Below, piece after piece: positions 12,180 through 29,992 of a DNA stretch of 64,000 nucleotides (position 1 is its first letter; each line of letters opens with the position of its first letter). Below the pieces are notes generated by a model. The model saw only the letters and a list, made by a program, of their open reading frames with translations, searched no databases and was not told where the DNA came from. The position numbers and the translations under genes were made by a program. Source of the DNA: Bacteroidia bacterium (GTDB lineage Bacteria > Bacteroidota > Bacteroidia > Cytophagales > Cyclobacteriaceae); the NCBI GenBank assembly GCA_030432655.1, contig JAUILA010000017.1, positions 62,001 through 126,000 of the forward strand, written 5' to 3'.

Positions 12180-13508
12180 ATGATCAAGCAAAACAGACGT
12201 TCATTTATAAAGCAATCGGCCCTGGCTGGAACAGGAGCGGTCATGTATCTCTCCTCCGGAAGGGTAATGGCATTGCCTCAAACCGAAAACGTAAACATTG
12301 CCATTCTGGGCACCGGAGGAAGGTCTTATGCCCTGGCTCAGGCTATCAATGACTGCAATAACATCAACCTGAGTCATGTGTGTGATGTGGACAGTCTGCG
12401 ACTGGATGCATTTCTTAAAAGTGCCGGGGAGAAATTCGGGAAGGTGCCTGCACGCGAAACGGATTTCCGGCGGATACTGGATAACAAGGATGTTGATGCC
12501 ATTGCCATCGCCACTCCGGAACACTGGCATGCCCCGATGGCGATAATGGGTATGGAATCCGGGAAACATGTATACGTGGAAAAACCGTGCAGTCATAATC
12601 TGAATGAAAATGAATTGCTGGTAGCCGCCTACCGGAGATACGGTAAAGTATGTCAGATGGGTAATCAGCAACGTTCCTCGAATACTTCACAACAGGCAAT
12701 AAGTGATATTCGGGAAGGAATTATCGGGGATGTGTATTACGCCAAAGCATGGTATTCCAATTCCCGGGGCTCGATTGGGAATGGAAAAGAAGTCGCGGTG
12801 CCGGATACCCTGGACTGGGAACTCTGGCAGGGACCTGCCCCGCGTGAGGCTTACCGGGACAACGTGCATCCGTATAACTGGCACTGGTTCCGCAACTGGG
12901 GCACAGGAGAAATTCATAACAACGGTACCCATGAGATTGATATTTGCCGGTGGGCACTGGATGTAGGCCTTCCAACCCGGGTTGTTTCAACGGGTGGACG
13001 GTACCATTTCTCCGACGACTGGGAATTCTATGATACGCAGAATGCGGATTTTGAATTTGATGGTGACAAAATGATCACCTGGGAAGGCAGAAGCTGTAAC
13101 AGTATGAAGCAATACGGCCGGGGCCGGGGTGCCATCATTCACGGGACGAATGGCAGTATTCTGCTGGACAGGGACGGGTATACCCGGTATGACCTGGATG
13201 GTAATGAACTGGAATACTTATCGGAAAAAAATTCAGGCACCAGCTCTTCCACGACAGACACTTCGGGATTTGATTCACTCACAGTGAATCATATGCAGAA
13301 CTTTGTCAATGCGATCCGGAACGGCGAGAAGCTCCAGGCCCCGATCGATGATGCAAGTATAAGCACTCATTTATGTCACTTAGGAAACATTGCACAGGAG
13401 CTACAGCAGAGTTTGTCCGTTGATAAGCAAACCGGTAAAATAATGAACAACCAGAAAGCCATGGATAAGTGGAGCCGGGATTATGCGCCGGGATGGGAGC
13501 TGAGCTGA
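12180..13508 (+). CDS. Gfo/Idh/MocA family oxidoreductase, Tat-exported
   Basis: 442 residues. Tat signal NRRSFIKQSALAGTG (twin Arg 6-7), Rossmann strand VNIAILGTGGRSYA, canonical VEKPCSHN, and the C-terminal-domain motif HNNGTHEIDICRWAL. It is longer than its neighbour and has the insertions common in exported Bacteroidota members. It starts 11 bp after the previous oxidoreductase, so DUF1080 and two oxidoreductases form one operon. Oxidation of the 3-OH of a glycoside, cleavage by DUF1080, and re-reduction of the 3-keto sugar is the expected sequence. Which of the two enzymes acts first cannot be read from sequence. Confidence 0.9.
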   Translation: MIKQNRRSFIKQSALAGTGAVMYLSSGRVMALPQTENVNIAILGTGGRSYALAQAINDCNNINLSHVCDVDSLRLDAFLKSAGEKFGKVPARETDFRRILDNKDVDAIAIATPEHWHAPMAIMGMESGKHVYVEKPCSHNLNENELLVAAYRRYGKVCQMGNQQRSSNTSQQAISDIREGIIGDVYYAKAWYSNSRGSIGNGKEVAVPDTLDWELWQGPAPREAYRDNVHPYNWHWFRNWGTGEIHNNGTHEIDICRWALDVGLPTRVVSTGGRYHFSDDWEFYDTQNADFEFDGDKMITWEGRSCNSMKQYGRGRGAIIHGTNGSILLDRDGYTRYDLDGNELEYLSEKNSGTSSSTTDTSGFDSLTVNHMQNFVNAIRNGEKLQAPIDDASISTHLCHLGNIAQELQQSLSVDKQTGKIMNNQKAMDKWSRDYAPGWELS

Positions 13509-13538
13509 AAGTAAGGCTGTCCGGGGACAACCTTACTT
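13509..13538. terminator. Hairpin terminator between convergent genes
   Basis: AAGTAAGG / CCTTACTT with an inner TGTCC / GGACA stem; it fills the 31-bp space between the oxidoreductase and the TPR gene. Confidence 0.6.
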
Positions 13539-13539
13539 A

Positions 13540-14079
13540 TTACTGTTCATCAGATGCCCAGCGATATGTCAGTGTAGTAGTCGCTATTTTATGCTCCAGC
13601 CTTTCTGATGCATTCTCCAGCGACTCCCACAAGTGCTGGCTGGTACAGGAATTCCGCACTTCTTCAATCATTTGCATGGCCTGGGCATAATTTCCGAGTT
13701 TTTCATACGCGTCAGCTGCCTGCAGCCTGATACTTACGCCAAATGAAGAAGGTTGAATTGGTTCGTTCTCGTAAATGCGAACCACTTTTTCACTTTGACC
13801 ACACCAGTTCAGCATGCGAAGCATCGCACATTTGGCTTCCTGAAAAGAATTATTGATCCTGCAGGCAGTTATGTAATTCTCCAGGGCTTTCTCATACTGC
13901 TCATAGCGAATTTCATACAGCAATCCCTTCAGGAAGTATGCCTCTTCGCACAACGGCTCATCGGCAAGGATTTCCTCCAGTAAGCGCAGGGCCCGGATGT
14001 TCTCCCACTCATCGATAAGGTCCCGTACTTTAAGAAGACGTTCCTCATTGTTTAATAATATGTCAGTATCCATGTACAT
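13540..14079 (-). CDS. TPR-like helical repeat protein
   Basis: About 179 residues from the ATG at 14079 (another ATG lies at 14073; a TTG at 14097 is less likely). The sequence is all helical with TPR spacing: LLEEILADEPLCEEAYFLKGLLYEI..YEKALENYITACRINNSFQEAKCAML, then AADAYEKLGNYAQAMQMIEEV. There is no signal peptide, so it is cytoplasmic and presumably a scaffold for protein contacts. The gene is alone and convergent with the glycan operon; nothing shows its partner. Confidence 0.7.
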   Translation of the reverse strand: MYMDTDILLNNEERLLKVRDLIDEWENIRALRLLEEILADEPLCEEAYFLKGLLYEIRYEQYEKALENYITACRINNSFQEAKCAMLRMLNWCGQSEKVVRIYENEPIQPSSFGVSIRLQAADAYEKLGNYAQAMQMIEEVRNSCTSQHLWESLENASERLEHKIATTTLTYRWASDEQ

Positions 14080-14297
14080 AATGGGTATGGTAATCAAGCC
14101 ATCCGGCTTGAAGTGTTATTACTAATTTTATACAGGTAAATGACCTGGCTGAATGTACCAGGCCGCATGAATACTACGAAGGCATGGTACAGTGCAGACT
14201 TATGACATACGTGTAAAATCGTTTGCTCATAGCTTATCTGTAATGTGGAGGCGAATTAAACAGGTTCAAGGCATATTTCCAAATTCTAAGTCGAAAA

Positions 14298-14317
14298 AAC
14301 CTAACAGTCATTAGGTT
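14298..14317. repeat. Perfect inverted repeat AACCTAA-6-TTAGGTT
   Basis: Seven-base arms with a six-base spacer. The CTAAC/GTTAG core recurs at 14403-14413, 14423-14428 and 14472-14476, so it may be a regulator site. Confidence 0.5.
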
Positions 14318-14469
14318 AAATAATCATAAAGATTTTGTAAAAAAATTGAACTTACTTGATATTGTAAAAATATTATTAATATATTCAGGGGAATTTTAAC
14401 CTCTAACTAACATGCTTGTTTCTGTTAGAATGATTCAAAACAGGGCGCCTTTGCATATTTGAAATATTC

Positions 14470-14553
14470 CTGTTAGCGTATCAGAAGTTACTCGACAAGA
14501 GTAATTTTTGCTAGCTTGCGTTTAAGCCACGGTACGTAGCCGTGGCTTTTTTT
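14470..14553 (+). ncRNA. Candidate small RNA with nested stem and terminator
   Basis: No open frame, but folded structure is clear: outer stem GTTAGC (14472-14477) with GCTAGC (14510-14515), inner hairpin TTACTC (14488-14493) with GAGTAA (14499-14504), then a Rho-independent terminator AGCCACGG / CCGTGGCT with T7 (14525-14553). A terminator here has no gene before it on the plus strand, since the previous gene is on the minus strand. CATATTTG at 14454-14461 resembles a -7 box, but the -33 box is weak. Alternatively it is the leader attenuator of the AraC-type gene that starts at 14617. No known RNA family recognised. Confidence 0.45.
14525..14553 (+). terminator. Rho-independent terminator without an upstream gene
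   Basis: AGCCACGG / CCGTGGCT stem with a seven-base loop followed by seven T. It lies 64 bp before the AraC-type reading frame. Confidence 0.8.
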
Positions 14554-14616
14554 GTTTTAGCTGGTAATGTCAAAAATTTGGAATAAATTACATAACTCAT
14601 TGATTAGTAGTTTTAT

Positions 14617-15480
14617 ATGAGAATAAAACCAGTTGAAGACAAAATTCCATATCAGTTTTTCTGGGATCTGGGCCCGGACAAACGAGTACATGTGGCGCGG
14701 CTAAAAACTACCAATCAGCAGGAACTGGCTATGTCCAATCCGCATCATCTGGGTTATTACGCCCTGCGTTTCATTCACCACGGGAAGGGGGTCATTTACA
14801 TTGACCATGTTCGTGAAGAGATTGAAGAAAACTTTGTCATGCTGGCTACTCCGGACCAGGTTAGCTGGATTGATGTACCGGCGGATGGACACATAGAAGT
14901 AAGCGTGATCGCCTTCAATGAGTTCTTTATTGATGATATGGGGCTTCCCCCGGATATTCAATCCCTGGTGATGGGAGAATTATCCCATGTACACCGTAAG
15001 CTTGACGAAAGCGAACTTGAGCTCTTTCATAAATACATGACCATCATATTCCATGAATTTTATGAACCTTCCTAGCACATGGAGATGATTATTGCCGGAT
15101 TGACCCGCGCATTGTTGTTGCATTTTGTCCGCATCAAAACACAGGCAAAGGGGAAAAGGATGTACTGGAATATTTACCGGCAGTTTCTTGATCTTCTTAA
15201 GAATAATTACCAGACTCATCATTATGTAGCAGATTACTGTGAGATGCTGGGAATTCCGGAAAAGCGTCTTACCCGTGCCTGCAAAGCTGTTACAGATATG
15301 TCAGCCTCAGTGATAATCCAGCGTCACATTGGATTTGAGGCCAAACGGCTGTTGTACTATTCCACCAATACCATCAAAGAGATAAGTTTTCACCTTGGGT
15401 TTAATGACCCGGCCCATTTCAACAAATTCTTTAAGAACATCTACAATCTCACCCCCGGCGAGTACCGAAAAGTACTATAA
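14617..15480 (+). pseudogene. AraC family regulator interrupted by an in-frame TAG
   Basis: Two open frames, 14617-15075 (152 aa) and 15079-15480 (133 aa), are in the same frame and are separated only by TAG at 15073-15075. Read together they form one AraC-type regulator of normal length (about 287 residues): N-terminal cupin-like sensor (FIHHGKGVIYIDHV, ATPDQVSWIDVPADG), helical linker across the stop, and a C-terminal double HTH (ADYCEMLGIPEKRLTRACKAV, then IKEISFHLGFNDPAHFNKFFK and LTPGEYRK). The second part has its own ATG at 15079 and could be made alone as a DNA-binding fragment. Nonsense mutation, sequencing error or real two-part protein are all possible. Confidence 0.75.
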
Positions 15481-19577: not shown

Positions 19578-19650
19578 TAAATAAAAAACCCCCTCAGAAT
19601 CACCTGAGAGGGCTTTTAGCTTTGTTTCCGCGGTCCGGACGGGACTCGAA
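19578..19650. repeat. Left attachment site (73-bp direct repeat, copy 1)
   Basis: Identical to 29866-29938. It holds a tRNA-Asp terminator hairpin and a 20-base fragment of the tRNA 3' end (19631-19650), truncated within the T-loop. Confidence 0.92.
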
Positions 19651-19734
19651 AATGGGGTTATAATGCACAATAATTTACCTAAAAGTAGGTTTAAAGCGAT
19701 TAAACGCATATCTTCACACAAGATATTACAATAA

Positions 19735-19760
19735 TTTACTGTCCCCATAGCTGTCCCCAT
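19735..19760. promoter_or_regulatory. Paired CTGTCCCCAT sites at the left end
   Basis: CTGTCCCCAT occurs at 19739-19748 and 19751-19760, spaced 12 bp, ending three bases before the integrase ATG. The same pair with the same spacing is at the right end (29845-29866). Arm-type integrase sites or operators are the likely role. Confidence 0.6.
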
Positions 19761-19763
19761 TTT

Positions 19764-21071
19764 ATGAGCTTAAAAATTCGCGTCCGTAACGATAAAAAGA
19801 ATAGCCGTGGCCAGTGCCCGGTAGTGATTCAATACCAGCACGATTCAGCCACTGTCCGTTTTCCGACTGGGGTAAGTGTACCTCCTCAGTTTGTGGATGA
19901 GGGCCCCAAGGATGGCCGTAGCTGGATTAAGAAAGGCCACAAGGGGTATACCACTGCCAACACCAAAATAAACCAAGTCTGGGCCGAGGTAGACGCCCTA
20001 ATAGCTGACTTGGCCAAGGAGCTGGGACGTGAGCCGACGGCGGGGGAGGTTCGGGATAAAAAGAACGAGCCAAAACAGGAGACCAAAAAGACCGATAAAC
20101 TTATTGAACTGTACCAGGAGTATGCTACTACATTTTCGGGAGCTACTCGCACAGCCAAGTATGCGGCTCTGGATAAGATGAAAGCTTACAATCCACGGGT
20201 AAAGGTAGGTAAGGTAAATCTGGGCTACGTCGACGGGTTTGTGGAGTTTATGCGTAAGGAATTGCAACTGGCTGAGACGACCATAGGTAAAACCATAAAG
20301 GACTTGAAAGCGGGTATACATTACTTTCACGATCGGGGCTGGATTGAACCGGAAACCTTTTACGCTATCAATCCTAAAAAATTTAAGGTAACCGAGTACA
20401 AGCCTACCCACGACCAGGAGAAAACATTTCTTACCCGTGAGGAGATGGCTGTAGTTATTCAATATGATAAGCCGCTGCCTGAGCATTTGCAGAACGCCCT
20501 GGAGCGTAACATCGTGCAGCTGCAGACAGGGCTCAGGGTGGGAGATACCCAGCGTATTGAGCCCTCTATGGTACTGGGTGGAGAGATTATTATGCGGAGC
20601 CAGAAAACAGATACCACCATGCGTATACCGCTTACCACCAAAGTGCAGGACATTCTAAAGCGGCACAGCTATACACTGCCCGAGCAGTCAGACCAGAAGT
20701 ATAACAAGGCCCTCAAAACCCTGTATAAAACCTTAGGCCTGGATAGGGCCGTGCAGTGGCCAAAGTACAAATTTGAGAAATGGCCGGACGATCGGAAACA
20801 GGAAGTACAGGACTGGCAGAAAGAGCAGAACCATAAGAGTATGGCAAAAGACTATATCCTGGTTCCACTATTCGCCGTTGCGAGCTCGCACATGGCCGTA
20901 CGTTCGTTTATTACAGTGGCCGAGGAGCTGGGCATGAGCTTAAACGATGTCTGCCACGTTACGGGAAAGACCGCCAAGATCATTCAAAAACACTACTGGG
21001 GAAACAACAAGGAGAGCCGTATGCAGGGCATGTCTAAGTTCGACCAGGCATTTAATCAGCAGGTCGGATGA
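19764..21071 (+). CDS. int: Tyrosine recombinase (island integrase)
   Basis: 435 residues: N-terminal arm-binding domain of the Bacteroidota type (1-45), SAM-like core-binding domain (about 112-205), catalytic domain (about 222-425). Catalytic residues seen: Arg258 in QTGLRVGD, Lys281 in RSQKTDTTMRIPL, His376 in SSHMAVRSF and Tyr411 in KHYWG. Two positions deviate: the usual HxxR reads H-M-A-V with Arg one residue later (380), and the box-II His of 'GH' is Lys402 (VTGKTAK). It would insert the island into tRNA-Asp. It starts right behind the left end sites, so it may control its own expression. Function may be intact or weakened. Confidence 0.88.
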   Translation: MSLKIRVRNDKKNSRGQCPVVIQYQHDSATVRFPTGVSVPPQFVDEGPKDGRSWIKKGHKGYTTANTKINQVWAEVDALIADLAKELGREPTAGEVRDKKNEPKQETKKTDKLIELYQEYATTFSGATRTAKYAALDKMKAYNPRVKVGKVNLGYVDGFVEFMRKELQLAETTIGKTIKDLKAGIHYFHDRGWIEPETFYAINPKKFKVTEYKPTHDQEKTFLTREEMAVVIQYDKPLPEHLQNALERNIVQLQTGLRVGDTQRIEPSMVLGGEIIMRSQKTDTTMRIPLTTKVQDILKRHSYTLPEQSDQKYNKALKTLYKTLGLDRAVQWPKYKFEKWPDDRKQEVQDWQKEQNHKSMAKDYILVPLFAVASSHMAVRSFITVAEELGMSLNDVCHVTGKTAKIIQKHYWGNNKESRMQGMSKFDQAFNQQVG

Positions 21072-21586
21072 TAGAGCGAATAGAGGACTTTCTAAGGCGT
21101 CACTTATCCCCTGACCTGGCAATGGATGCTGACGTAATTCATGCCAACGCCCGCAACCTCCAGCTGGCAATTAATTTCGACACCCATTTTTTAAAAAACG
21201 AACAAAATCTGAGGGATTTTTTAAGGGTCCGCGGCGTTGGGGGAGAGGACAATTGGTCCCGGGCCAGCCATTCCCCCACTGACATGGTAAAAGTGGCTGT
21301 AATACACTGGCTCCATGCAATTTATACACGTTTCCCGAGGCAGAGCTTTAAGGGTGGTAAAGATCAAATGATACTAAATACTCTAGAGGAGTTTGACATG
21401 GAAACGCTCTGGAGTAAACAGACAGGTATAGCGCGTACCGTGGGTTCCATATCCCGTACATTATCGGACAACAAACCCAATAAATTTATCCATTCCGGTC
21501 CGGAAGGTATTACAGTCGATACGGTTAAAATCCTGCTCCCACCTGAGGACAGGGAGGACTGGAGCAGCAAAAATTTTACATTGTAG
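21068..21586 (+). CDS. Unknown island protein coupled to integrase
   Basis: 172 residues. Its ATG overlaps the integrase stop (ATGA), so both are translated together. No signal peptide or membrane segment. Content is mixed helical with many charged residues (IEDFLRRHLSPDLAMDADVIH, VKVAVIHWLHAIYTRF, GIARTVGSISRTLSDN). I do not recognise a family. Its place between int and the Xis-like gene suggests a role in recombination control or lysogeny, but nothing in the sequence proves it. Confidence 0.7.
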   Translation: MIERIEDFLRRHLSPDLAMDADVIHANARNLQLAINFDTHFLKNEQNLRDFLRVRGVGGEDNWSRASHSPTDMVKVAVIHWLHAIYTRFPRQSFKGGKDQMILNTLEEFDMETLWSKQTGIARTVGSISRTLSDNKPNKFIHSGPEGITVDTVKILLPPEDREDWSSKNFTL

Positions 21587-21649
21587 TTAGCCAATTCGGT
21601 CCTTCTTATTACAGGACATTGCAGGCATGTTTCATTTAAATAACATGTC

Positions 21650-21865
21650 ATGGAAAATTCAATCACGCCTGTTAACTACGGGCTCCCAATTCCCTTAAGA
21701 ACTGTTTGCGACCAGCTCGGAGTCTCACGCCGGTGGGTGTACGATATGATCGACCGGGGTAAACTGCGGCAGTATAAAATCGGTAAAAAGGTCTTTTTCA
21801 AAGCCAGCGAAATTATGGCGGCTTTAGAGGAGGATAAGAGAGGAAAGGAGGTCGCCAATGCCTGA
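21650..21865 (+). CDS. Helix-turn-helix excisionase-like protein
   Basis: 71 residues forming a MerR/AlpA-type winged HTH (HTH_17): IPLRTVCDQLGVSRRWVYDMIDRG, then QYKIGKKVFFKASEIMAAL, which is the recognition helix followed by the wing. Such small proteins in Bacteroidota mobile elements act as excisionases or as activators of excision genes. It overlaps the next gene (rep) by 8 bp, so regulation of excision and replication may be linked. The long basic tail is short here. Confidence 0.85.
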   Translation: MENSITPVNYGLPIPLRTVCDQLGVSRRWVYDMIDRGKLRQYKIGKKVFFKASEIMAALEEDKRGKEVANA

Positions 21866-23885
21866 GACAAAAAAAGCCCCGGCCGGACGAGGACCGAGGC
21901 AAAGTATCAATTCTGCAGCAGGTGAGAAAGATACGCAAAAAATCTCATTTTTCCGTACTAAGCGCTCTAAACGTCCGAACCAATTAACCGTAAATCAAGT
22001 GCTTGCGGGTATTCGTGACGGAGAGTACAGGGAGCTTGTGGAAGAGCTGCAGGAAATACTGGAGACCGAAGGAGTGGAGGCCTACAAGGCAGCTAAGAAC
22101 AGTACAGGCATTCCCTGTTTTACCGCCTCCGCCGTATGCGAGGGAGGCCATAGTCGAGATCATATGATGGCCCACACTGGCCTAATAATTATAGACGTGG
22201 ACCCCGGCGCCAACCCAAAGCTAGATATTGATGAGCTCCGGGAGGATGACAATTTTCTGGCCGTACATCTGTCCCTATCAGGCCGCGGTGCCGCTATCTG
22301 GCTACGATGCAACCCGGATAACCATAAAGGAGTTTATGCGGAAGCCACTGAGTACCTGCAGCGCGAGTATGGGCTAAAGGTGGACAGCTCCGCCGACGAC
22401 GTTACCCGTTTACGGTTTGTATCCTATGACCCCGATATGAAGGAGCCCAACTGGGATGCACCAGTATGGGATGGGATTATTATCGAAAAACAAGTGCCCC
22501 AGACTGGACCAGCGCCGGAAATTGACTTTGTCGACTTGGAGGGTGTGGAGGAACGGATAGAATGGGCCGAAAAAAAGGGCATTCCGGTATTTGAAACCGA
22601 GGAGGACTACTTTAAAAAAATGATCGTCCCATTGTCTGCCTACGGAGAGGAGGCTTACCACTATACTAAACGACTGGTTAAGGTCTGGGAGGATGCCACC
22701 GGCAAGACCTCAGACAGAGACCTGCGGGAAGACTGGGAACGTGCGCAAAGGGACTATCCACCTAAAGCTGGGGGTATCAAACTCGGCAGTTTTATAGATG
22801 CCTTCAAAGAGGCAGGATACGGCCCTAAGGTCAGCCTGAGCCGGAAAGGTAAGAAGGGCCGGCCTAAGGGTAGTAAAAATAAAAAGAAGACCCCGGGAAA
22901 ACTGCGCAACCTTTACGACGTCGGTACCGAGCTGACCGATCGTATTATTGCAGCAGAGCCGGGCGTACCATTAGTTGAAAATTTCATTATCACCGGAGAA
23001 CTGACCCTTATGGCAGGCCCTAACAACGTAGGTAAATCCATTCAAGCAATACAGTGGGGGGTAGATGTGGCCAGAGGCCATAAGCGTGTGCTTTACATAG
23101 ACTGGGAGCTGAGTTATCAGCAACACAAACCCCGGTACGAGGGGTATCCATGGCCCGAATATTTTGCCCGGTCCAGCCGTCAAAAGTTCTGGGAGCAGGA
23201 TATGGGTACCGATGACCTGATAAATATATTGGGGAATATGGTCGAAGAATATCAGCCTGCGTTATTGATAATAGATAATATTACAGCCATAGAAGGTACT
23301 GGAGATACCACTCAGGCAGTGGACGCTAAGGCCGTAATGGAATGGTTAACGGAGTTCAAACGAATACAGCCAGATATGGGCATACTTGTGCTTATGCACA
23401 CGGTAAAAATCAAAAAATATATGCCCCTGTCTCTTAAAGACGTCCGCGGCTCTGGGGTCTACTCTGATTTAACAGACAGTGTCGTGATAATGAACCGAGT
23501 GAAACCAACTGAAGCCGATGAGACCCCGCAGGTTTATTTAAAACAGGAGAAGACCAGGACAGGGCGTACTGTCTACGGTGAGCATAACTGCCTGGTAAAA
23601 CGAATAGCGAATTCACAGGACGCTAATTTCCTCCACTTTACCACAGTCGGAGACAGGTACAACGAGGAGGAGCTGGTAAGTGGGGGCGACCATATCTCAG
23701 AACGTGACCGTTTTAAGATCGAGGACCAAACACGTGCCCGGATTGCCTGGCGATTGAAGCTAACGCACAATTTCACCCACGATGACCTGGCCGAACTACT
23801 GGAGTTTAAACACAAATCCCGGGTAACCGAAATGTTCCAACGCAATAAATTTGTACGTGCACCTGGGGGTGAATCCGAACTATAA
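21858..23885 (+). CDS. Replication protein: VirE-N/BT4734-like domain, AT-hook and RecA-type ATPase
   Basis: 675 residues. Domain 1 (about 40-205) matches the VirE N-terminal/BT4734-like fold: LTVNQVLAGIRDGEY, GIPCFTAS, HTGLIIIDVDP (107-116), SLSGRGAAIWL, RLRFVSYDPD. A basic stretch at 332-344 contains the classic AT-hook GRPKGSKNK. Domain 2 (about 350-600) is a RepA/AAA_25-like ATPase: Walker A GPNNVGKS (387-394), Walker B LLIIDN (469-474), VLMHTVK sensor strand. A short HTH-like segment ends the protein. It resembles the primase-helicase proteins of plasmids and satellites and lies directly before an iteron/AT-rich origin, which it probably opens. No Rep nicking motif was seen. Confidence 0.82.
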   Translation: MPETKKAPAGRGPRQSINSAAGEKDTQKISFFRTKRSKRPNQLTVNQVLAGIRDGEYRELVEELQEILETEGVEAYKAAKNSTGIPCFTASAVCEGGHSRDHMMAHTGLIIIDVDPGANPKLDIDELREDDNFLAVHLSLSGRGAAIWLRCNPDNHKGVYAEATEYLQREYGLKVDSSADDVTRLRFVSYDPDMKEPNWDAPVWDGIIIEKQVPQTGPAPEIDFVDLEGVEERIEWAEKKGIPVFETEEDYFKKMIVPLSAYGEEAYHYTKRLVKVWEDATGKTSDRDLREDWERAQRDYPPKAGGIKLGSFIDAFKEAGYGPKVSLSRKGKKGRPKGSKNKKKTPGKLRNLYDVGTELTDRIIAAEPGVPLVENFIITGELTLMAGPNNVGKSIQAIQWGVDVARGHKRVLYIDWELSYQQHKPRYEGYPWPEYFARSSRQKFWEQDMGTDDLINILGNMVEEYQPALLIIDNITAIEGTGDTTQAVDAKAVMEWLTEFKRIQPDMGILVLMHTVKIKKYMPLSLKDVRGSGVYSDLTDSVVIMNRVKPTEADETPQVYLKQEKTRTGRTVYGEHNCLVKRIANSQDANFLHFTTVGDRYNEEELVSGGDHISERDRFKIEDQTRARIAWRLKLTHNFTHDDLAELLEFKHKSRVTEMFQRNKFVRAPGGESEL

Positions 23886-23914
23886 TGAGACGAAAAAAGG
23901 GTACCCCCACCTAC

Positions 23915-24051
23915 TACGACCGAACACCGAACACCTTAAAAACCCCCTATACTATATATATAAGCATAAAATATATATATGAGTGTTCGGTTTAAGGGGT
24001 GAGCGCATATACAAAAATAATAGATGTTCGGCGTTCGGTGTTCGGGTGAAC
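23915..24051. other. Replication origin of the island (iterons around an AT-rich block)
   Basis: Two tandem CGAACAC heptamers (23921-23934), then about 35 bp of almost pure A/T (about 23948-23980), then inverted GTGTTCGG (23983-23990) and three tandem TGTTCGG/CGTTCGG heptamers (24025-24045). The arms are also inverted further out (ACACCTTAAA against TTTAAGGGGTG). Iterons flanking an AT-rich unwinding block immediately behind rep is the layout known for SaPI/PICI origins. Confidence 0.8.
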
Positions 24052-24113
24052 GTTTACAGGTAGTTAAAAAAGGCGGAGCTATTTGCGGCACGCCACCTGG
24101 ATGACGGAACTAT

Positions 24114-24242
24114 TTAAACAAGTTCGACAATAAGGATAATTAAAATGAAGACAGCGGCTATCCAGAGGGCTATTGTATAAATACGCTCCTCTTGCTTTAG
24201 AGATTTCATCCATTTTTTATTTCTGTCCTTCTGATTTTCCAT
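24114..24242 (-). CDS. Small single-pass membrane protein
   Basis: 42 residues on the opposite strand to its neighbours: a charged head (MENQKDRNKKWMKSLKQEER) and one long hydrophobic helix (IYTIALWIAAVFILIILIV). It has its own ATG and stop and lies between the origin and the terminase. Small membrane proteins of this shape occur as holin-like, toxin or regulator peptides in phage-related elements, but no family can be named. It may also be a chance frame, although the head/helix split is typical of a real product. Confidence 0.5.
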   Translation of the reverse strand: MENQKDRNKKWMKSLKQEERIYTIALWIAAVFILIILIVELV

Positions 24243-24458
24243 TTAAACCAAGATAGTCAAAATTTCTCTGTCTGTCACGTGGCCTCCGGTTGCAGCCTAT
24301 AAGCCTTAAGACCCTCGAACCACGGCAATTACCGGAACATAATTAAGTCAAATTTTATAGTTGTGAGTCTGTATAGGACTCGAATAATTGCTTATATTGC
24401 ATTTAAATGAATTTATTGTAACATGGGGACAGTAAAGGGGCCAGTAAACGAGGAGAAA
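24243..24458. other. Leader region of terminase, with a tRNA-like fragment
   Basis: No gene. 24364-24386 reads on the minus strand as TTCGAGTCC plus a possible acceptor end, i.e. like the 3' part of a tRNA cut within its T-loop, the same way as the left att. A further ATGGGGACAGTAAA site (inverse of TTTACTGTCCCCAT) lies at 24423-24436. Confidence 0.45.
24423..24436 (-). promoter_or_regulatory. Inverted copy of the TTTACTGTCCCCAT end motif before terminase
   Basis: Exact inverse of 19735-19748, 23 bp before the TerS start at 24459. It links the control of the packaging genes to the sites at the island ends. Confidence 0.6.
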
Positions 24459-24866
24459 ATGGTAGAAAAACCACTCACTGAGTTACAGGAACGATTTGTT
24501 CACGAGTTCCTGAAAATTGGTAGGGCAGGGGCTGCTGCCCAGGCGGCAGGTTATGCTCGTAACTCCGCGCATATTTCGGCTTACCGACTTTTACAGGACC
24601 CGAGAGTGGCCGCCAGGCTGGAAGAGTTGCGACGTACGGTTTTGTCCCCCGATATGGTTACCCGTGAGGCCTTGTTAGGCTCGATGGTACGCGACTACAT
24701 GGAACTGACGTCAGCACAGCAACGAATAAAGGCGGCTGAGTCTATTGCACGGGTGGCGGGAATAAGTGGGGTAACTAATGTGGAGGTAGGGGCAGACCGG
24801 CGGTCTGTTACATTCATTCTGCCAGATGGTAAAGAGGTTATGAAACTTGACAAAATCAATGACTGA
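24459..24866 (+). CDS. terS: Terminase small subunit
   Basis: 135 residues from the ATG at 24459 (GGAG six bases before it; an ATG at 24423 lies within a repeat motif and would add unlikely residues). The N-terminal HTH region fits Terminase_2 (PF03592): LTELQERFVHEFLKIGRAGAAAQAAGY, then SAHISAYRLLQDPRVAARLEEL. TerS recognises the packaging (pac/cos) site and recruits TerL. In satellites, a divergent TerS redirects a helper phage's packaging to the satellite genome. Here it overlaps the gene of a complete TerL by eight bases. Confidence 0.88.
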   Translation: MVEKPLTELQERFVHEFLKIGRAGAAAQAAGYARNSAHISAYRLLQDPRVAARLEELRRTVLSPDMVTREALLGSMVRDYMELTSAQQRIKAAESIARVAGISGVTNVEVGADRRSVTFILPDGKEVMKLDKIND

Positions 24867-26157
24867 GGCCACTGCCATAGACTTGCAGGCAAGCATTAAT
24901 AAGGTATTCCAGCCGTTGCTGTACACCCAACAGCGCATTGTATTAATGCTGGGGTCTGCTGGTTCAGGAAAATCCGTATTCTGTGCTCAAAAGCTGGTCA
25001 TACGGTGTCTTATGGAGGGAAACCACCGCTTTCTGGCCGTACGCAAAGTACAGCGGACCTTGAGGGAGTCGGTATGGTCGGAGGTACTTTGGCTTATTGA
25101 CGAGTGGAGGCTGCGAGAGGTGACCGAAATTCAGATTAATAAGAGTGAAATGTGGATAGGTATTGGGAACAGCAGAATTATCTGCACTGGGCTAGACGAC
25201 CCTGAGAAGATAAAATCCATATCAGGCATTACAGGAATTTGGGTTGAGGAACTGAGTGAGCTATCATTTGACGAGTTCACACAGCTAAACCTGCGCTTGC
25301 GTAACTCGACCTCACATTACAGACAGATTCTAGGTTCATTTAATCCAGTATCGGAGGATTCATGGATTAAGCGCATGTACTATGACAAGGAGCACCCAGA
25401 CGTAATACGCCATAAGAGCACATACCTTCAGAATCCGTACTTAGATGAGTCCTACCGCTTGACATTAGAGCAGTACAAAGAAACGAACCCACTGTACTAC
25501 CAGATTTACGTGCTTGCCGAATGGGGCTTACGGGATAAAGCCGGAAAATTTCTCTGGGCATGGGAGCCTGATAAACATGTCAGTGAGAAACCACGGTACA
25601 TCCCTCAGCTCGCACTGCGTCTGTCCTTTGACTTTAATATAGAGCCGTTTGCGGTGTCGGTGTACCAAAGGCTCGACGGAAACACCCTCCATATATTCGA
25701 TAAAATCCGGCTTAATGACTCAGATATTTACGCGGTATGCGACACGATAAAATCCATGTATCCGCGAGCAGTATATATTTGTACCGGCGATGCTTCCGGT
25801 AAAAACCTGACTGGTACCACTCGGGGAAAAACATCGTATTGGCAAATCATTCGCCAGCAGCTCAACCTCAGTAATGCCCAGCTGCGAATACGTTCCAAGA
25901 ACATCGATTTAATAAATAGCCGTGTCCGATGCAATGCTGCTCTACGCACTAAGAATATTCTGGTCCATCCACGCTGTGAAGAGCTAATACACGACGCCAC
26001 CTACGCCAGTGTGGATGCAGAGGGCGTACTGGTCAAAGACCGGGAGGCCAATAAAAATGATTTTTTGGATACATTCCGCTATCTACTGGATGCGGAGTGG
26101 CCAACAATAATTCCAAACCACAAAAATTATGACACCAGATCAATCGAAACTCAATGA
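24859..26157 (+). CDS. terL: Terminase large subunit
   Basis: 432 residues from ATG 24859 (a TTG twelve bases earlier is less likely). PBSX-type TerL: Walker A GSAGSGKS (32-39), Walker B GIWVEEL (126-132), coupling motif around LGSFNP, and the RNase-H-like nuclease with acidic residues at FDFN (258), TGDASG (311) and KNDFLDTF (401/404). Both ATPase and nuclease parts are whole, so it is probably active. It pumps DNA into a procapsid through a portal. No portal or capsid gene follows, which is what makes this element look like a satellite that brings its own motor. Confidence 0.9.
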   Translation: MTEATAIDLQASINKVFQPLLYTQQRIVLMLGSAGSGKSVFCAQKLVIRCLMEGNHRFLAVRKVQRTLRESVWSEVLWLIDEWRLREVTEIQINKSEMWIGIGNSRIICTGLDDPEKIKSISGITGIWVEELSELSFDEFTQLNLRLRNSTSHYRQILGSFNPVSEDSWIKRMYYDKEHPDVIRHKSTYLQNPYLDESYRLTLEQYKETNPLYYQIYVLAEWGLRDKAGKFLWAWEPDKHVSEKPRYIPQLALRLSFDFNIEPFAVSVYQRLDGNTLHIFDKIRLNDSDIYAVCDTIKSMYPRAVYICTGDASGKNLTGTTRGKTSYWQIIRQQLNLSNAQLRIRSKNIDLINSRVRCNAALRTKNILVHPRCEELIHDATYASVDAEGVLVKDREANKNDFLDTFRYLLDAEWPTIIPNHKNYDTRSIETQ

Positions 26158-26473
26158 CACCGTAGTTCGGCTATTTGCTGATTTACTCGCCGTAGGCGAT
26201 TTATCTCAACCTCTCTCACTGCAGGTTAAGGCTGTAATGAAAATTCAGCTGGAGGCTGCTGAGAGACAGCGAGGAGGAGAATTCTATAAGACACGCGAGA
26301 GCATGGAGGAGGAGCGATACCTTGCGCCTATACTCTGCGCATTGACGCGTGATATGCGCCGTATAATGAACCAGCACCACCACTTTGCACAGCAGAATGC
26401 AAGGGAGGAAATGCGCATAAAAGAAAAGGAGTTAAATTTTAAACAGCATAACGATGAGCAAAACAATATTTGA
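26129..26473 (+). CDS. Unknown helical protein after terminase
   Basis: 114 residues; overlaps the terL end by 29 bp and the next gene by 20 bp. Helical and charged throughout (LSLQVKAVMKIQLEAAERQRGGEFYK, REEMRIKEKELNFKQHNDEQ), with a long coiled-coil-like C-terminus. No family recognised. Helical proteins next to terminase often act in packaging or capsid assembly, so this is a candidate for a packaging adaptor or capsid-redirecting factor; this is inference from position only. Confidence 0.7.
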   Translation: MTPDQSKLNDTVVRLFADLLAVGDLSQPLSLQVKAVMKIQLEAAERQRGGEFYKTRESMEEERYLAPILCALTRDMRRIMNQHHHFAQQNAREEMRIKEKELNFKQHNDEQNNI

Positions 26474-27302
26474 AACAGTTGCCGCGGAGGTTGAAAAACT
26501 TGACCTGGGCGATTTTCGGAATACATCCGACCGGGTAAATCTGATTAACCAGGTGGCCAGTCAGTTGGACGTCAACGGCCAGCAGGTCGTGAGGAGAGGG
26601 CTTAATACCTCGGCAGATATTCCGGCCATGATAAAGAAAGCTGCGCCGCAATTTCTGCAGGCTAAAACATTGGGGCGCTATGTGCCGAGGTACCCGGACA
26701 ATCTGGGCAAGAGTGCCGATGAGCTCCGGCACATGCGGCAAGCTAATTTCAGTTTTCTGGACAGCTATACACGAAACCGTGGTTTTGTGTTCAAGAGTGA
26801 CAAGGAGCGGCAGGAGCTTCTTGATAGGCTTTCAAGTCAGTACAATTTTGAATGGAACACAGAAAAGCAGCCGGTGGCTAGAAAGCTTCACAAAGGGATG
26901 TGGTGCAAAGAGCAGCCAGCCAAGGAGGTGGTAGACACTGCGCTGGGCGACCTGCTCGACACTGAAGAGACCCAATGGGCGCAAATGGAACAGCGCGCAA
27001 AGTTCAGAAAGAAAGCCGCGGAAATGCTCGGTTTTGAGGGGCAGCAGTTGGATGAAAAACAGCGTAAGAACTTGGAGGACCTTACCGAAGTCGTACAGGC
27101 TCGCTCCGAGCGCTGTGACACGTTTCTGGCTGATAAGGAACGGGTTCAACCAGATGTAGAAGGATACCGTGCTGCCATTCGCGCGCGGCAGCTCCATACC
27201 CTCGGGCATGAGTCCACGGATACGATGAGTATCAACGAACAAACAAGGCTTAACGCCTCGGTGGAAAGTACACTGAAAAATGAGCTGGGCTATGGCGGAT
27301 GA
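26454..27302 (+). CDS. Unknown island protein (largest of the post-terminase genes)
   Basis: 282 residues, soluble, no signal peptide. Mostly helical, with RRGLNTSADIPAMIKKAAPQFLQAKTLGRYVPRYPDNL, a paired-Trp/Cys segment KGMWCKEQPAKE, and a long charged helix (FRKKAAEMLGFEGQQLDEKQRKNLEDLTEVVQARSE). It is too short for a standard portal and has no major-capsid or protease signature that I can see. Its place and coupling with terminase suggest a structural, scaffold or helper-interference role. Structure prediction would be the way to decide. Confidence 0.7.
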   Translation: MSKTIFETVAAEVEKLDLGDFRNTSDRVNLINQVASQLDVNGQQVVRRGLNTSADIPAMIKKAAPQFLQAKTLGRYVPRYPDNLGKSADELRHMRQANFSFLDSYTRNRGFVFKSDKERQELLDRLSSQYNFEWNTEKQPVARKLHKGMWCKEQPAKEVVDTALGDLLDTEETQWAQMEQRAKFRKKAAEMLGFEGQQLDEKQRKNLEDLTEVVQARSERCDTFLADKERVQPDVEGYRAAIRARQLHTLGHESTDTMSINEQTRLNASVESTLKNELGYGG

Positions 27303-27576
27303 AATTAAGAGGTACCAGGACAAACTACTGGAGCTCCAGTACAATCAGGTTTACGACGGGCTCACGTTCGTTAATCCACGGCTGCAGGATTCAATGAGAG
27401 ATTACATTCGTGGCCTTGTCGAACACAAGTACCGGCTGGAGCTGGACGACGACCTGAATTTGGTCCTCCGAGATAAGAACAGCCCACACCTAGACGCGTA
27501 CGATGAAAAAGACCGAAAACTTACTCTTGGCCAGGTACTGTGGAAGGAGCTCGACGCCTACCTAAAGAAAAGCTAG
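27292..27576 (+). CDS. Unknown small island protein
   Basis: 94 residues from the ATG at 27292, which overlaps the previous stop by eleven bases. Content: KRYQDKLLELQYNQVYDGLTF, MRDYIRGLVEHKYRLELDDDLNLVLRDKNSPH and KLTLGQVLWKELDAYLKK. Acidic and helical, no family recognised. It is the last gene before the operon terminator at 27603-27631, so TerS, TerL and three unknown genes form one packaging transcript. Confidence 0.65.
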   Translation: MADEIKRYQDKLLELQYNQVYDGLTFVNPRLQDSMRDYIRGLVEHKYRLELDDDLNLVLRDKNSPHLDAYDEKDRKLTLGQVLWKELDAYLKKS

Positions 27577-27602
27577 TTTTAGTTGTGGTGTGTTTAAATC
27601 CG

Positions 27603-27631
27603 CCCCCGGTCTCGTGTAGACTGGGGGTTTT
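27603..27631 (+). terminator. Rho-independent terminator of the terminase operon
   Basis: CCCCCGGTCT / AGACTGGGGG stem, five-base loop, T4 tail, 26 bp after the last gene of the operon. Confidence 0.85.
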
Positions 27632-27730
27632 AATAAATAATAGGTTACAATTATACTTTTTTTAGAATTCATATAAAGGGTGGTGATACGTCTAATGAGT
27701 TTTCGTCCCCAGCTATAGAACTAAAATAAT

Positions 27731-27761
27731 TTTAGTGTTAATTATTTTTATTTTATATTTG
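27731..27761 (+). promoter_or_regulatory. Strong Bacteroidota-type promoter of the cargo pair
   Basis: TTTA (consensus TTTG), 19 bp, TATATTTG (perfect TAnnTTTG), ending 26 bp before the ATG at 27788. Confidence 0.65.
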
Positions 27762-27787
27762 CAATGTTTCACAAAAGCAACTAAATC

Positions 27788-27934
27788 ATGGGTAAGTATC
27801 TTAAAAAGACCGCTAATAATAAGCGTTTGAGTGCGTCTAAGGTCAAGACTCAAGCAGATAAATTTCAATTGCACATTTATACCGCAGCGGAAGTTGAAAA
27901 TACCCGTATTAAAGCTTATCCAATTCTGGCCTAG
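27788..27934 (+). CDS. Small basic protein of the cargo pair
   Basis: 48 residues, basic (MGKYLKKTANNKRLSASKVKTQ), with a beta-like end (KFQLHIYTAAEVENTRIK). It follows an excellent promoter and is separated by only nine bases from the next gene, so the pair is one unit. Small basic gene plus larger partner is a layout of toxin-antitoxin or anti-phage pairs, but no family is recognised. Too short for certainty by itself; promoter and spacing support it. Confidence 0.5.
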   Translation: MGKYLKKTANNKRLSASKVKTQADKFQLHIYTAAEVENTRIKAYPILA

Positions 27935-27943
27935 AATCCCTTA

Positions 27944-28462
27944 ATGTTTAATCAGGGATATCCTACAACTCTAGTTAAGAAAGAATCCGTCAATGACAGA
28001 GAGCATTTAGAGAGCCGGATATACACATTTCGAATATCTAATAGAACCCGATTTCGCGTTGAGATAGACAGGTATAGCCTCAATATATTTATAGTTAAAT
28101 TTTGCCTAGCAAACAGCACCGCAAAGAATAAATATAGTGTTTTAGCAAATGTGGGTGTTACGGAGGCGAGTAGAATAATTCGGACCAGCCTAGATGTTTG
28201 TTTAAATATTGCAAGAACAGAGGCGCCAAACGCCTCCTTTGGGTTTATAGGTTCTGAAAAAGAACAGGAGGATAAACATAATACAACTAGATTTAGAATC
28301 TACAAGCTATTGTGTATTTCTTCCTTTAGTAAGGATAATTATCTACATGTAGATGATATAGATAGGAGCGCCTACCTTATTGTAAGCAAAAACAATTCAA
28401 ATCCAGAAAAAATTGCAAGGAGGGCCGCAAAATTTTTCGCACGGATCTATGAATGGGAATAA
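27944..28462 (+). CDS. Unknown accessory protein of the cargo pair
   Basis: 172 residues, soluble alpha/beta content: YTFRISNRTRFRVEIDRYSLNIFIVKF, NASFGFIGSEKEQEDKHNTTRFRIYKLLC, RSAYLIVSKNN. The strong central segment FGFIG....TRFRIYKL followed by a 'SAYLIV' strand looks conserved in type, but I cannot name the family. It lies in the accessory zone between the terminase operon and att, where satellites carry anti-phage or virulence genes. It is AT-rich compared with int and rep. Confidence 0.65.
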   Translation: MFNQGYPTTLVKKESVNDREHLESRIYTFRISNRTRFRVEIDRYSLNIFIVKFCLANSTAKNKYSVLANVGVTEASRIIRTSLDVCLNIARTEAPNASFGFIGSEKEQEDKHNTTRFRIYKLLCISSFSKDNYLHVDDIDRSAYLIVSKNNSNPEKIARRAAKFFARIYEWE

Positions 28463-28485
28463 CTTAAAACATGGAAATGTTAGCT

Positions 28486-28992
28486 TTAATAGCTCTTTTT
28501 TTGATATTCAATAATAAGCTTTTTAGCTTTTATTGTTGGGGAAAGCCCTTTATCTATTGATTGCTTTGTCACTTCTAAAAATTTCTCAAGGTAAATCTTT
28601 TCATTGGTCATATGCCAAAGATACACAGTATCAAAATTTTCAGAGAATTTCGACAGGTGCACACGAATTTGTTTTAGTAAATTCGACTCTAAATAGGCGG
28701 ATTGGGTATCTATATAATTCATGAGTGAGTTGTAGTTCGCGAAAAACGGCGGATTCTCTGCCGGCTGCTTAGTATGCAAGAACCGATTAAAATCCCTTTC
28801 TAAATCCTGTAATCGTCTATGTATTTCTTCCAGTGCGTTCACCTCTTTTCGCTTACGATTTAGTTTTGTGTCGATTCGAACTCGATTGCCACTTTCTAAA
28901 AACCTATCATAAAAATATTTAAGGATAAATGCTGTCACTCCACCAATTAAACCAGAGATGAGGTTAGTGAGATTTATTAATGTCTCCTCCAT
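28486..28992 (-). CDS. Membrane-anchored coiled-coil protein
   Basis: 168 residues. N-terminal membrane segment (LINLTNLISGLIGGVTAFILKYF, about 5-27), then a long charged helical part with coiled-coil character (RKRKEVNALEEIHRRLQDLERDFNRF) and a second helical part to the C-terminus. It is the last gene of a four-gene minus-strand group; its ATG overlaps the stop of the gene before it (TAATG). No family named. Single-pass anchors with cytoplasmic helical domains occur in phage-defence and lysis-related proteins, but this is not proof. Confidence 0.65.
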   Translation of the reverse strand: MEETLINLTNLISGLIGGVTAFILKYFYDRFLESGNRVRIDTKLNRKRKEVNALEEIHRRLQDLERDFNRFLHTKQPAENPPFFANYNSLMNYIDTQSAYLESNLLKQIRVHLSKFSENFDTVYLWHMTNEKIYLEKFLEVTKQSIDKGLSPTIKAKKLIIEYQKKSY

Positions 28993-29192
28993 TAAGTGAT
29001 TATTATAATAGAACCGTCAATAAGTGTCTCGTTTGTGTGCCAGGCAAACCGTTTACCAGTCCGTTGACATTCCCGGACCATTCTATAGGTCTTGTCCCAG
29101 CCGTAGCTGAGCAGTGCCTCTTCCACTGGTTGGTTGGGGTACTTATCAGCATATGCATATATTGTGGCGAATATGGCAAATGGCTCGATCAT
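28992..29192 (-). CDS. Small unknown cargo protein
   Basis: 66 residues (FAIFATIYAYADKYPNQPVEEALLSYGW, then YRMVRECQRTGKRFAWHTNETL). Soluble, no motif recognised. It is coupled to the membrane protein gene behind it (one-base overlap of stop and start) and starts 12 bp after the previous gene, so it is a member of the cargo operon. Confidence 0.5.
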   Translation of the reverse strand: MIEPFAIFATIYAYADKYPNQPVEEALLSYGWDKTYRMVRECQRTGKRFAWHTNETLIDGSIIIIT

Positions 29193-29204
29193 CTGATTCT
29201 ATCA

Positions 29205-29405
29205 CTAATAAGTCAAATAATCCTTAATTTGTTGAAGAGCTTTTTTATTATTGGCATACTCTACAATTACACTACCATATTCCCCCAAATGGAGCTGCCA
29301 GAATTTTCCATCAATATCAAGACCTTGTATACAGGATAAGTCAGTTAAGCAGTGCTCAACATTATTAATATCCTTGAGGGTTATAAGTAAATTATCTTTA
29401 TCCAT
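29205..29405 (-). CDS. Small unknown cargo protein
   Basis: 66 residues with beta-rich content (LLITLKDINNVEHCLTDLSC, KFWQLHLGEYGSVIVEYANN). Two Cys, no known motif. Its start overlaps the end of the preceding gene by eight bases, which supports that it is real and translated together with the neighbours. Confidence 0.55.
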   Translation of the reverse strand: MDKDNLLITLKDINNVEHCLTDLSCIQGLDIDGKFWQLHLGEYGSVIVEYANNKKALQQIKDYLTY

Positions 29406-29769
29406 GTTGATAACAATACCCTGAGGCTGATTTGGTAATACGTTTACATCTAGCTCCGGCCTTAGTCTTACCTCTACACTGCCTAGAGGTAGACGTAGGA
29501 CTCGTCCTTGTAGGTGTGGTGGTCTTACTGGCCGAGTTCACTGTGGTAGTAGGTTTGCATACGGAACATGCTGTAAGCCCAAGTTTTTTGGCATCTTCAA
29601 GCGCTACAGCTGTACCACTAGCGCTAGCGTAATGGCAAGTCTTTGTATGATACTTCTTACCGGTCTTAGTTTTATAAACAGTAGTGGTCTCCTTCTTTAC
29701 AGCTGGGCTTTGAGCTGAGGTATAACCGTTTGATGTGAGAAAGAGGGTAAGTAAAATTAGTATTCTCAT
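29398..29769 (-). CDS. Secreted zinc-site protein of the cargo operon
   Basis: 123 residues with a signal peptide (ending TSAQ). Two Cys/His modules: a YHTKTCHYASASG..LEDAKKLGLTACSVCKP segment, which is the C/C..CxxC pattern of Ada-like metal modules also found at the end of secreted nucleases, and a C-terminal CRGKTKAGARCKRIT..YCYQHG segment, a CxxxTxxGxxCxR...CxxH zinc module. The Thr/Ser-rich linker between them is likely flexible. It is the first gene of the cargo operon and would act outside the cytoplasm, perhaps DNA-binding; no nuclease domain is present. Confidence 0.7.
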   Translation of the reverse strand: MRILILLTLFLTSNGYTSAQSPAVKKETTTVYKTKTGKKYHTKTCHYASASGTAVALEDAKKLGLTACSVCKPTTTVNSASKTTTPTRTSPTSTSRQCRGKTKAGARCKRITKSASGYCYQHG

Positions 29770-29843
29770 AAAGCTGGACTGTAGAACCGATAGTAATTTA
29801 ATAATACTGCAATAATTCTACCTACCAAACCAAGAAAATAATG

Positions 29844-29866
29844 ACTGTCCCCAATACTGTCCCCAT
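29844..29866. promoter_or_regulatory. Paired CTGTCCCCA(T) sites at the right end
   Basis: CTGTCCCCA at 29845-29853 and CTGTCCCCAT at 29857-29866, spaced 12 bp as at the left end and in the same orientation, touching the right att repeat. Likely arm-type integrase sites. Confidence 0.6.
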
Positions 29867-29900
29867 AAATAAAAAACCCCCTCAGAATCACCTGAGAGGG
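29866..29900 (-). terminator. Terminator of tRNA-Asp
   Basis: On the minus strand a stem (CCCTCTCAG with CTGAGGGGG) followed by T6. It is part of the att repeat, so insertion keeps the tRNA transcript unchanged. Confidence 0.75.
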
Positions 29901-29938
29901 CTTTTAGCTTTGTTTCCGCGGTCCGGACGGGACTCGAA
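29866..29938. repeat. Right attachment site (73-bp direct repeat, copy 2)
   Basis: Identical to 19578-19650. It covers the tRNA-Asp terminator and the 3'-terminal 20 bases of the intact tRNA (29919-29938). Confidence 0.92.
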
Positions 29939-29992
29939 CCCGCGACCTCCTGCGTGACAGGCAGGCATTCTAACCAACTGAACTACCGGACC
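29919..29992 (-). tRNA. tRNA-Asp (anticodon GUC)
   Basis: Read on the minus strand: acceptor GGTCCGG / CCGGACC, D-arm with AGTTGGTTAGA, anticodon arm CCTGCCTGTCACGCAGG with anticodon GTC, T-arm GCGGGTTCGAGTCCCGT, discriminator G. CCA is not encoded. All arms are paired, so the gene is whole although its 3' end is the integration target of the island. Confidence 0.97.

Follow-up and report, generated by a model that had tools for sequence, protein, structure and literature searches.

How would a mobile island travel if it carries a complete phage packaging motor and no recognisable gene for a shell to pack? The question is raised by an island, here called E1, in a member of the Cyclobacteriaceae (Bacteroidia bacterium, assembly GCA_030432655.1, a 4.95-Mb draft genome in 50 contigs). 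The window, that is the whole stretch of DNA analysed, comprises 64,000 nucleotides (contig JAUILA010000017.1, positions 62,001 to 126,000), and coordinates refer to it unless another sequence is named. A sequence-only reading of the window had proposed that E1 packages itself, with its own small (TerS) and large (TerL) terminase subunits, into the particles of a helper phage. Our results favor this proposal, at a probability that we put at about 0.6: E1 appears to be a satellite resembling the Staphylococcus aureus pathogenicity islands (SaPIs) and other phage-inducible chromosomal islands (PICIs), one that is equipped with a TerS-TerL motor of its own and would load the procapsids of a helper.

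E1 is bordered by a pair of perfect 73-nt direct repeats (identity 100%, at 19578-19650 and 29866-29938, with a spacing of 10,288), which cannot be extended by a single base on either side. The left attachment site (attL) is a copy of the 3' end of a tRNA-Asp gene and its terminator; the right one (attR) overlaps the 3' end of the tRNA-Asp gene (29918-29992, minus strand) and a terminator-like hairpin. An island of about 10.3 kb in tRNA-Asp, as claimed earlier, is thereby confirmed. The borders then given (19578-29938) are correct, but they count both attachment copies; with one copy the element measures 10,288 bp (19651-29938, or 19578-29865). Tandem ACTGTCCCCAT pairs lie near both ends (19738-19760, and 29844-29866 beside attR, both on the plus strand) and are probably arm-type sites of the integrase. 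With up to one mismatch, five of the six matches to this motif in the window are inside E1 (shuffles gave a mean of 1.32), and similar tandem pairs occur near both ends of a further island, E3, described below. An inverted, degenerate copy of the pair (24423-24448, minus strand; 30-nt arms, 83% complementary to 19735-19764) is found at the start of terS, as part of an att-like and inverted arm-like sequence at 24367-24448 immediately before that gene; perhaps this is where an int-Rep module was once joined to a terminase module, or it arose by chance.

Integrase, excisionase-like helix-turn-helix (HTH) protein and replication protein had been named from the letters alone, and profile matches support all three. 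The tyrosine integrase (19764-21071, plus strand, 435 amino acids (aa)) matches Phage_int_SAM_5 and Arm-DNA-bind_5 above the Pfam cut-offs, and E1 thus possesses the integrase and specific attachment site that belong to a PICI or SaPI. Overlapping it is a gene of 172 aa (21068-21586, plus strand) with no significant family match in Pfam, PHROGs or NCBIfam. Then follow an HTH_17 excisionase-like regulator of 71 aa (21650-21865, plus strand; Pfam 1.4e-11, phrog_66 excisionase/regulator 2.5e-7, TIGR01764 4.8e-11) and Rep, a protein of 675 aa (21858-23885, plus strand) in which a BT4734-like_N primase-type domain is fused to an AAA_25 helicase domain (Pfam 2.3e-16 and 3e-12; phrog_239 primase/helicase 2e-21).

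SaPIs and PICIs measure about 10 kb and carry iterons, and in SaPI origins two groups of iterons surround an AT-rich stretch. E1 likewise has a primase/rep module followed by a putative origin, the former recognised by profile and the latter by clustered repeats only: after Rep, at 23920-24045, two groups of GTGTTCGG-type repeats flank a stretch of 79% AT. Four of the five exact matches to GTGTTCGG in the window, and six of the 37 found with up to one mismatch, fall within these 126 bp. The corresponding Poisson P of ~7e-11 for that one stretch should be interpreted with some caution, since it is uncorrected and the motif was picked from the site itself. Of the iteron origin claimed earlier the local clustering stands, but the motif is not enriched over the window as a whole (37 matches against a shuffle mean of 40.4), and in a blunter test, which scores each 130-bp segment by its most frequent 7-mer, the origin stretch shares its score of 4 with two other places.

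The terminase genes are adjacent and overlapping. TerS (24423-24866, plus strand, 147 aa; Terminase_2 3.8e-12, phrog_51 2.5e-15) may instead start at a later ATG at 24459, and TerL (24847-26157, plus strand, 436 aa) matches Terminase_3 at 7.9e-49 in Pfam and the PBSX-type TIGR01547 above its cut-off. Aligned with relatives of 41-44% identity, TerL has its motifs intact: a Walker A motif (residues 36-43), a Walker B region (132-135) and, in conserved columns, the acidic nuclease positions D262, D315 and D408, all of which we take to have their usual catalytic roles. With profile matches to both subunits and intact motifs, the pair is complete, as had been stated.

The same cannot be said of the particle. 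The earlier claim that E1 holds no recognisable portal, capsid, tail or lysis gene agrees with every search made. Such genes found no match among the 14 E1 proteins in Pfam, nor among those scanned in PHROGs (10 plus-strand proteins), NCBIfam (10) and PADLOC (9), and blastx of E1 (E up to 1) against the open reading frames (ORFs) of the loci collected up to that point, hits to its own copy left out, matched int, rep, terS and terL alone. None of the portal, capsid and tail genes of an intact tailed prophage was recognised, nor, in 14 proteins in Pfam and 10 in PHROGs, the portal, major capsid, protease and connectors that stand beside the terminase in a capsid-forming PICI (cfPICI). Nine E1 ORFs have no clear function, and the structural genes are strictly speaking unrecognised; that one is hidden among these ORFs is unlikely.

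It could nevertheless be argued that E1 is a capsid-forming satellite of the cfPICI kind whose portal and capsid have diverged too far to be recognised. Directly behind terL, the usual place of head genes, are three plus-strand genes. The first, of 114 aa (26129-26473), overlaps terL and has no significant family match in Pfam, PHROGs or NCBIfam; the second, of 282 aa (26454-27302), has no significant match, a weak one to Pfam DotZ (0.0054) being below cut-off; the third, of 98 aa (27280-27576), overlaps its neighbour and has no Pfam or significant PHROGs match, with weak PADLOC matches at 0.0026 and 0.0093. No relative of any of the three turned up in the ORFs of the collected loci, and the 282-aa protein found no match in phages, none that was significant in PDB sequences or family libraries, and none in the 195 other genomes of the host family (196 searched; host only). 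However, none of the three is big enough for the usual portal, which is 480-576 aa in related phages, and an alignment-free structure model of the 282-aa protein contains helices only, unlike an HK97-fold shell, although at low confidence (mean pLDDT, the predicted local distance difference test score, 46). The check for portal or capsid genes that had been asked of these proteins thus gave no match by hidden Markov model, but for the 282-aa protein only a low-confidence model. We regard a concealed shell of this kind as very improbable.

Where, then, would the shell come from? Because TerL must fit the portal, the likeliest helper would be a phage whose TerL is akin to that of E1. Counting the host, TerL matched 6 of 196 family genomes (E<=1e-3) and 6 of 395 phylum-drawn genomes (E<=1e-15); in profile form it matched 9 of 395 genomes drawn from the class (E<=1e-30). 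Single-sequence scans found no relatives of TerL in genome and viral contig collections, nor of the 282-aa protein, Rep or Int in viral contigs; scans with an alignment covered the best 80 loci of at least 600 candidate stretches in each of two viral searches, and the best 80 of 333 in genome contigs. Among the matches listed, the nearest TerLs belong to uncultured viral contigs (L216, L217, L218, L220 and L260), with 46-50% identity in the best-matching tblastn segment, which spans residues 13-18 to 422-431 of the 436. A tape-measure-sized protein comes after TerL in four of these five, the L218 stretch being too short to judge. PHROGs names a tape measure, phrog_15220 and a portal (phrog_7376) in L216; the portals of L217 and L260 were called from 41-43% identity to that of L216, in L260 because its own PHROGs matches are weak unknowns, and L220 holds the portal start only, at the locus end (three complete portals and one start overall). 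Related loci also occur in a Bacteroidetes metagenome-assembled genome (MAG; L136), in a locus labelled Firmicutes (L137) and in a genome of the host family, G124, whose prophage (TerL locus L050, 31.6% identity over 244 aa) has tape-measure-like and portal genes after TerL. In contrast to L216, L217, L220, L260 and the G124 prophage, neither was recognised behind the TerL of E1. In a TerL tree of 144 rows, with L183, L175, L150 and all rows outside 370-530 aa dropped, the placement of E1 is weakly supported (76, then 93).

A portal profile built from L216, L217, L260 and L136 was searched against eight genomes or records and matched G124 (5e-99) and the L216 record, which is itself in the profile; the other six, host and G098 included, gave no match. 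Among the 196 family genomes phrog_15220 was present in G098 and G124, and of the five family genomes with a TerL match besides the host four read as prophages, G051 being left out. A phrog_7376 search of the host gave no match, but the controls behaved likewise and the result is uninformative. The search for an intact prophage that could help, suggested earlier, thus yielded a portal-bearing relative in family member G124 but none in the host.

Elements comparable to E1 were met in two settings. First, islands with a similar front half exist. Matches to the Rep query came from 61 of 196 family genomes, the host among them, and in the host one match lay on contig C40, which carries a second island, E2 (L317, C40 24000-36837; island at 2948-12684, ~9.7 kb), in tRNA-Ala between perfect 46-bp repeats at 2902-2947 and 12639-12684. 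E2 encodes an integrase, a 181-aa protein, an HTH_17 protein, a Rep (BT4734_N, with AAA_25 just below cut-off) and a TerS (phrog_6299, 7.5e-19, with no Pfam terminase match); five ACGTCCGC repeats lie at the Rep end. The fetched stretch revealed no TerL. Its cargo includes a TIR_2-domain protein (4789-5388), possibly a defence gene. A third island, E3 (~7.5 kb), is present in two species of one genus (L325 of G053, 7550-15037; L326 of G113, 6116-14947, there interrupted by a 393-aa ORF that we read as transposase-like). It encodes an integrase, a 201-aa protein, an HTH protein, an ATPase, a Rep-N-like protein (by blastp to the E2 Rep) and a 94-aa protein that matches 15 of 247 ORFs directly upstream of TerL (best 4.2e-14 in L234, and 2.9e-5 in L216), its PHROGs matches being limited to families of unknown function. 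Between the two occurrences of E3 the identity is 99.985% over 6,468 bp and 99.904% over 1,038 bp, and the rest of the 20-kb stretches is without similarity, which points to recent movement unless one assembly is contaminated.

E2 and E3 thus resemble E1 in an integrase, a gene of 172-201 aa, an HTH gene, a Rep-like gene and a TerS or TerS-like gene. The 172-aa gene of E1 holds the same place as the 181-aa and 201-aa genes, although a comparison gave no demonstrated homology. The integrases of E1 and E2 are hardly alike, and those of E1 and E3 match at 7e-14; the TerS-type proteins of E2 and E3 differ in kind from that of E1, and neither island has a TerL. Twenty further Rep stretches, from 19 of the 60 other Rep-positive family genomes, contained no TerL by profile, and apart from E3 most were read, from gene sizes and similarities, as mobilisable elements.

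Secondly, a comparable element exists outside this lineage. A search of known phages with the L216 TerL reached MT836267.1 (L338), an unannotated faecal record of 11,458 bp flagged UNVERIFIED, which is probably a complete circle because its ends share an exact 124-bp repeat. It encodes an integrase, a CI-like repressor, a primase-helicase, a TerS-like protein and a TerL; the TerS call is weak (phrog_641 1.1e-4, the best match being to a family of unknown function), and ten proteins scanned, about half its ORFs, gave no further structural match. Its gene content is like that of E1, but it belongs to a different lineage and has a CI-like repressor: its TerL is 48% identical to that of another faecal record and 44% to that of a Blautia phage, and the 265-aa protein behind its terL cannot be aligned with the 282-aa protein of E1. 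Six faecal records with a similar Int or Rep (MT836838, MT836914, MT836511, MT835951, MT837501 and MT839118) gave no TerL match with the profile and are not counted as relatives, and two more (MT836860 and MT840013) were taken as phage fragments since they lack a terminal repeat and have further long ORFs past the TerL match. A third motor-carrying case is possible in a Bacteroidetes MAG (L185, 7542-19646), with an integrase, an HTH protein, a TerL and a VapE-like primase-helicase; ten proteins scanned gave no structural match besides TerL, and no flanking repeat or tRNA was found within 21 kb.

Several observations weigh against the satellite reading. The host, a draft of 50 contigs, shows no second TerL, no phrog_15220 and no portal of the TerL-related phages; PF05065 capsid and PF04860 portal were not found in it either, the power of these families to detect such phages being unchecked. 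No relative has the whole E1 gene set: the 282-aa query matched the host alone, and none of the TerL loci of five other phylum-drawn and eight other class-drawn genomes combines an integrase and Rep of the E1 kind with TerL. Among 285 fetched loci examined for gene combinations (248 with TerL), integrase and TerL co-occur in 12, Rep and TerL in 12, and all three in two, namely the window's own copy (L053) and L185; the integrase and Rep counts are lower bounds, because 6 sequences went into the integrase profile and 5 into that of Rep, most of them from Bacteroidota. The proposed search for the same gene order across Bacteroidota thus found the complete set nowhere else, but did find the partial sisters E2 and E3. 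The genes of no clear function could, furthermore, conceal structural roles. Finally, uncultured phage contigs in which Rep lies upstream of TerL contain relatives of both the Rep N-domain and TerL, and Rep-like N-domains also occur in more distant TerL contigs, e.g. L224 and L230.

The last point, and the failure to find a second copy of E1 in the searches made, would fit a reduced prophage, in which a temperate phage no longer has its genes for head, tail and lysis, while int, rep and terS-terL persist as a dying or only-replicating remnant. Taken alone, that scenario leaves the clean borders and the compact, intact genes of E1 unaccounted for. Its core genes are full length, compact and overlapping, their codon statistics agree with the annotated frame and the att repeats are perfect; blastx against the fetched loci shows no fragments of structural genes; sister islands share the same front half, one of them common to two species; and MT836267.1 is an independent, terminally redundant record of like content. 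A mere remnant is in our view unlikely, though to be taken seriously, and the two readings may be compatible insofar that satellites may arise by reduction.

Like SaPIs and PICIs, E1 has a specific att site, an integrase, an excision/regulatory HTH gene, a fused primase-rep with the origin after it, a TerS (as in some of them), accessory genes at one end and no recognised structural genes (PMC6092414). Unlike them it brings a whole TerS-TerL pair, where PICIs bring TerS or a cos site (PMC6092414); the SaPI-type pattern of TerS without TerL is seen in E2 and not in E1. In Gram-positive PICIs the excision gene and replication module are transcribed opposite to the regulator (PMC6092414), whereas int, HTH gene and rep of E1 share one strand. 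The cfPICIs and the Streptomyces elements Mulch and Flayer carry, as does E1, both terminase subunits, but together with a portal, a major capsid protein and connectors or adapters (PMC10690885); no counterpart of these was recognised in E1. Phage-inducible chromosomal minimalist islands (PICMIs) have a minimal gene set with no identifiable packaging genes and insert next to fis, in contrast to the TerS-TerL pair and tRNA-Asp site of E1 (PMC10803314), and for AH14b no identified terminase is reported (PMC4936722). From its sequence E1 is perhaps best described as a variant of the phage satellites that would be PICI-like in its working, without the Gram-positive divergent layout and without the capsid genes of a cfPICI. 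Among the matches listed, the literature searched, which included PMC11389934, PMC13376191, PMC11977359, PMC12946183 and PMC12324425, showed no Bacteroidota satellite with TerS-TerL and without a capsid; the novelty claimed for the layout is upheld to that extent, but the search was incomplete and an earlier description is possible.

We hypothesize that the island operates as follows. The integrase would cut E1 out of tRNA-Asp, the HTH protein serving either in excision or in regulation, and Rep would copy the island starting at the iteron origin, with concatemers as the probable product. TerS would select the island DNA and TerL would pump it into procapsids, portal, shell and tail being supplied by a helper from outside this assembly. 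Having both subunits on board would make E1 independent of the helper's terminase and a competitor for empty shells. As a guess, the 282-aa gene is a candidate for acting on the helper capsid, and together with the genes beside it may divert that capsid or alter its size. Interference with the helper, also at the packaging stage, is common among satellites (PMC10690885, PMC6092414), and TerS-TerL might accordingly be mainly a weapon or decoy that blocks the helper's portal or cuts its DNA, the island spreading otherwise, e.g. by generalised packaging. E1 has no recognised portal or capsid that would fix a packaging role. On the other hand, a whole, motif-complete pair would exceed the needs of a decoy, and we consider this use of the motor improbable. 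The satellite reading would account for replication and packaging genes, no recognised shell genes and sister islands at once; the proposal of self-packaging thus gains from the anatomy of E1, its TerS-bearing sisters, the kinship of its TerL with tailed phages that have their structural genes elsewhere in the genome and the fit of MT836267.1, but has found no helper in the host.

The remaining genes of E1 lie at its right end. The genes from int to the 98-aa gene are all on the plus strand. They are followed by an accessory gene of 172 aa (27944-28462, plus strand, GC content 0.36), with no significant match in Pfam, PHROGs or NCBIfam, and by four accessory minus-strand ORFs (168, 66, 66 and 123 aa, 28486-29769), the last with a DUF5763 match just below cut-off. 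The GC content of these five is lower overall (0.32-0.45 against 0.46-0.52). Codon statistics favor the annotated frame in 12 of the 14 E1 ORFs, several by small margins; the 66-aa ORF at 29205-29405 and the 123-aa ORF, two of the four on the minus strand, fail this test. A promoter scan (21 sites against 16.6 by chance) was not used.

Some TerL loci outside E1 have settings of their own. Runs of genes resembling glycosyltransferases and sugar enzymes, judged from sequence starts only, lie near the terminase in L216 (1187-5970) and L137 (7581-14042). In Ignavibacteria and related MAGs (L044/L175, L046/L183, L173 and L201) TerL sits amid mostly host-like genes, again from sequence starts, and from gene sizes only L179, L193, L190 and L165 look similar; no portal or capsid was seen adjoining these Ignavibacteria-type loci, although three small ORFs ahead of TerL in L046 are possibly phage genes. 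L173 and L201 have downstream chromosomal genes in common, so that their TerL may be inherited vertically, and a TerL of this type has perhaps been domesticated or belongs to a gene transfer agent. A solitary TerL of ~460 aa is found between chromosomal genes in L305, L306, L307 (genus g288), L164 and L168, with common neighbours in L306, L307 and L164.

In conclusion, known satellites take the helper's head and terminase, redirect packaging with a TerS of their own, or build a whole head. We tentatively suggest, at somewhat less than even odds, that motor-carrying satellites form a distinct class of ~10-11 kb between the TerS-only SaPIs and the cfPICIs, with at least two unrelated lineages (E1 and MT836267.1, L185 being a possible third), that bring their own TerS-TerL and steal only procapsids and tails; beside the TerS-only islands of the host family, they would constitute the first SaPI-like satellite family in Bacteroidota in the literature searched. 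If this is true, a full motor without a shell raises the question of how far a terminase works on a foreign portal, and E1 would offer a natural system for portal-terminase matching. It would also mean that SaPI-like transfer takes place in Bacteroidota, with a possible defence cargo in the TIR-domain gene of the sister island E2.

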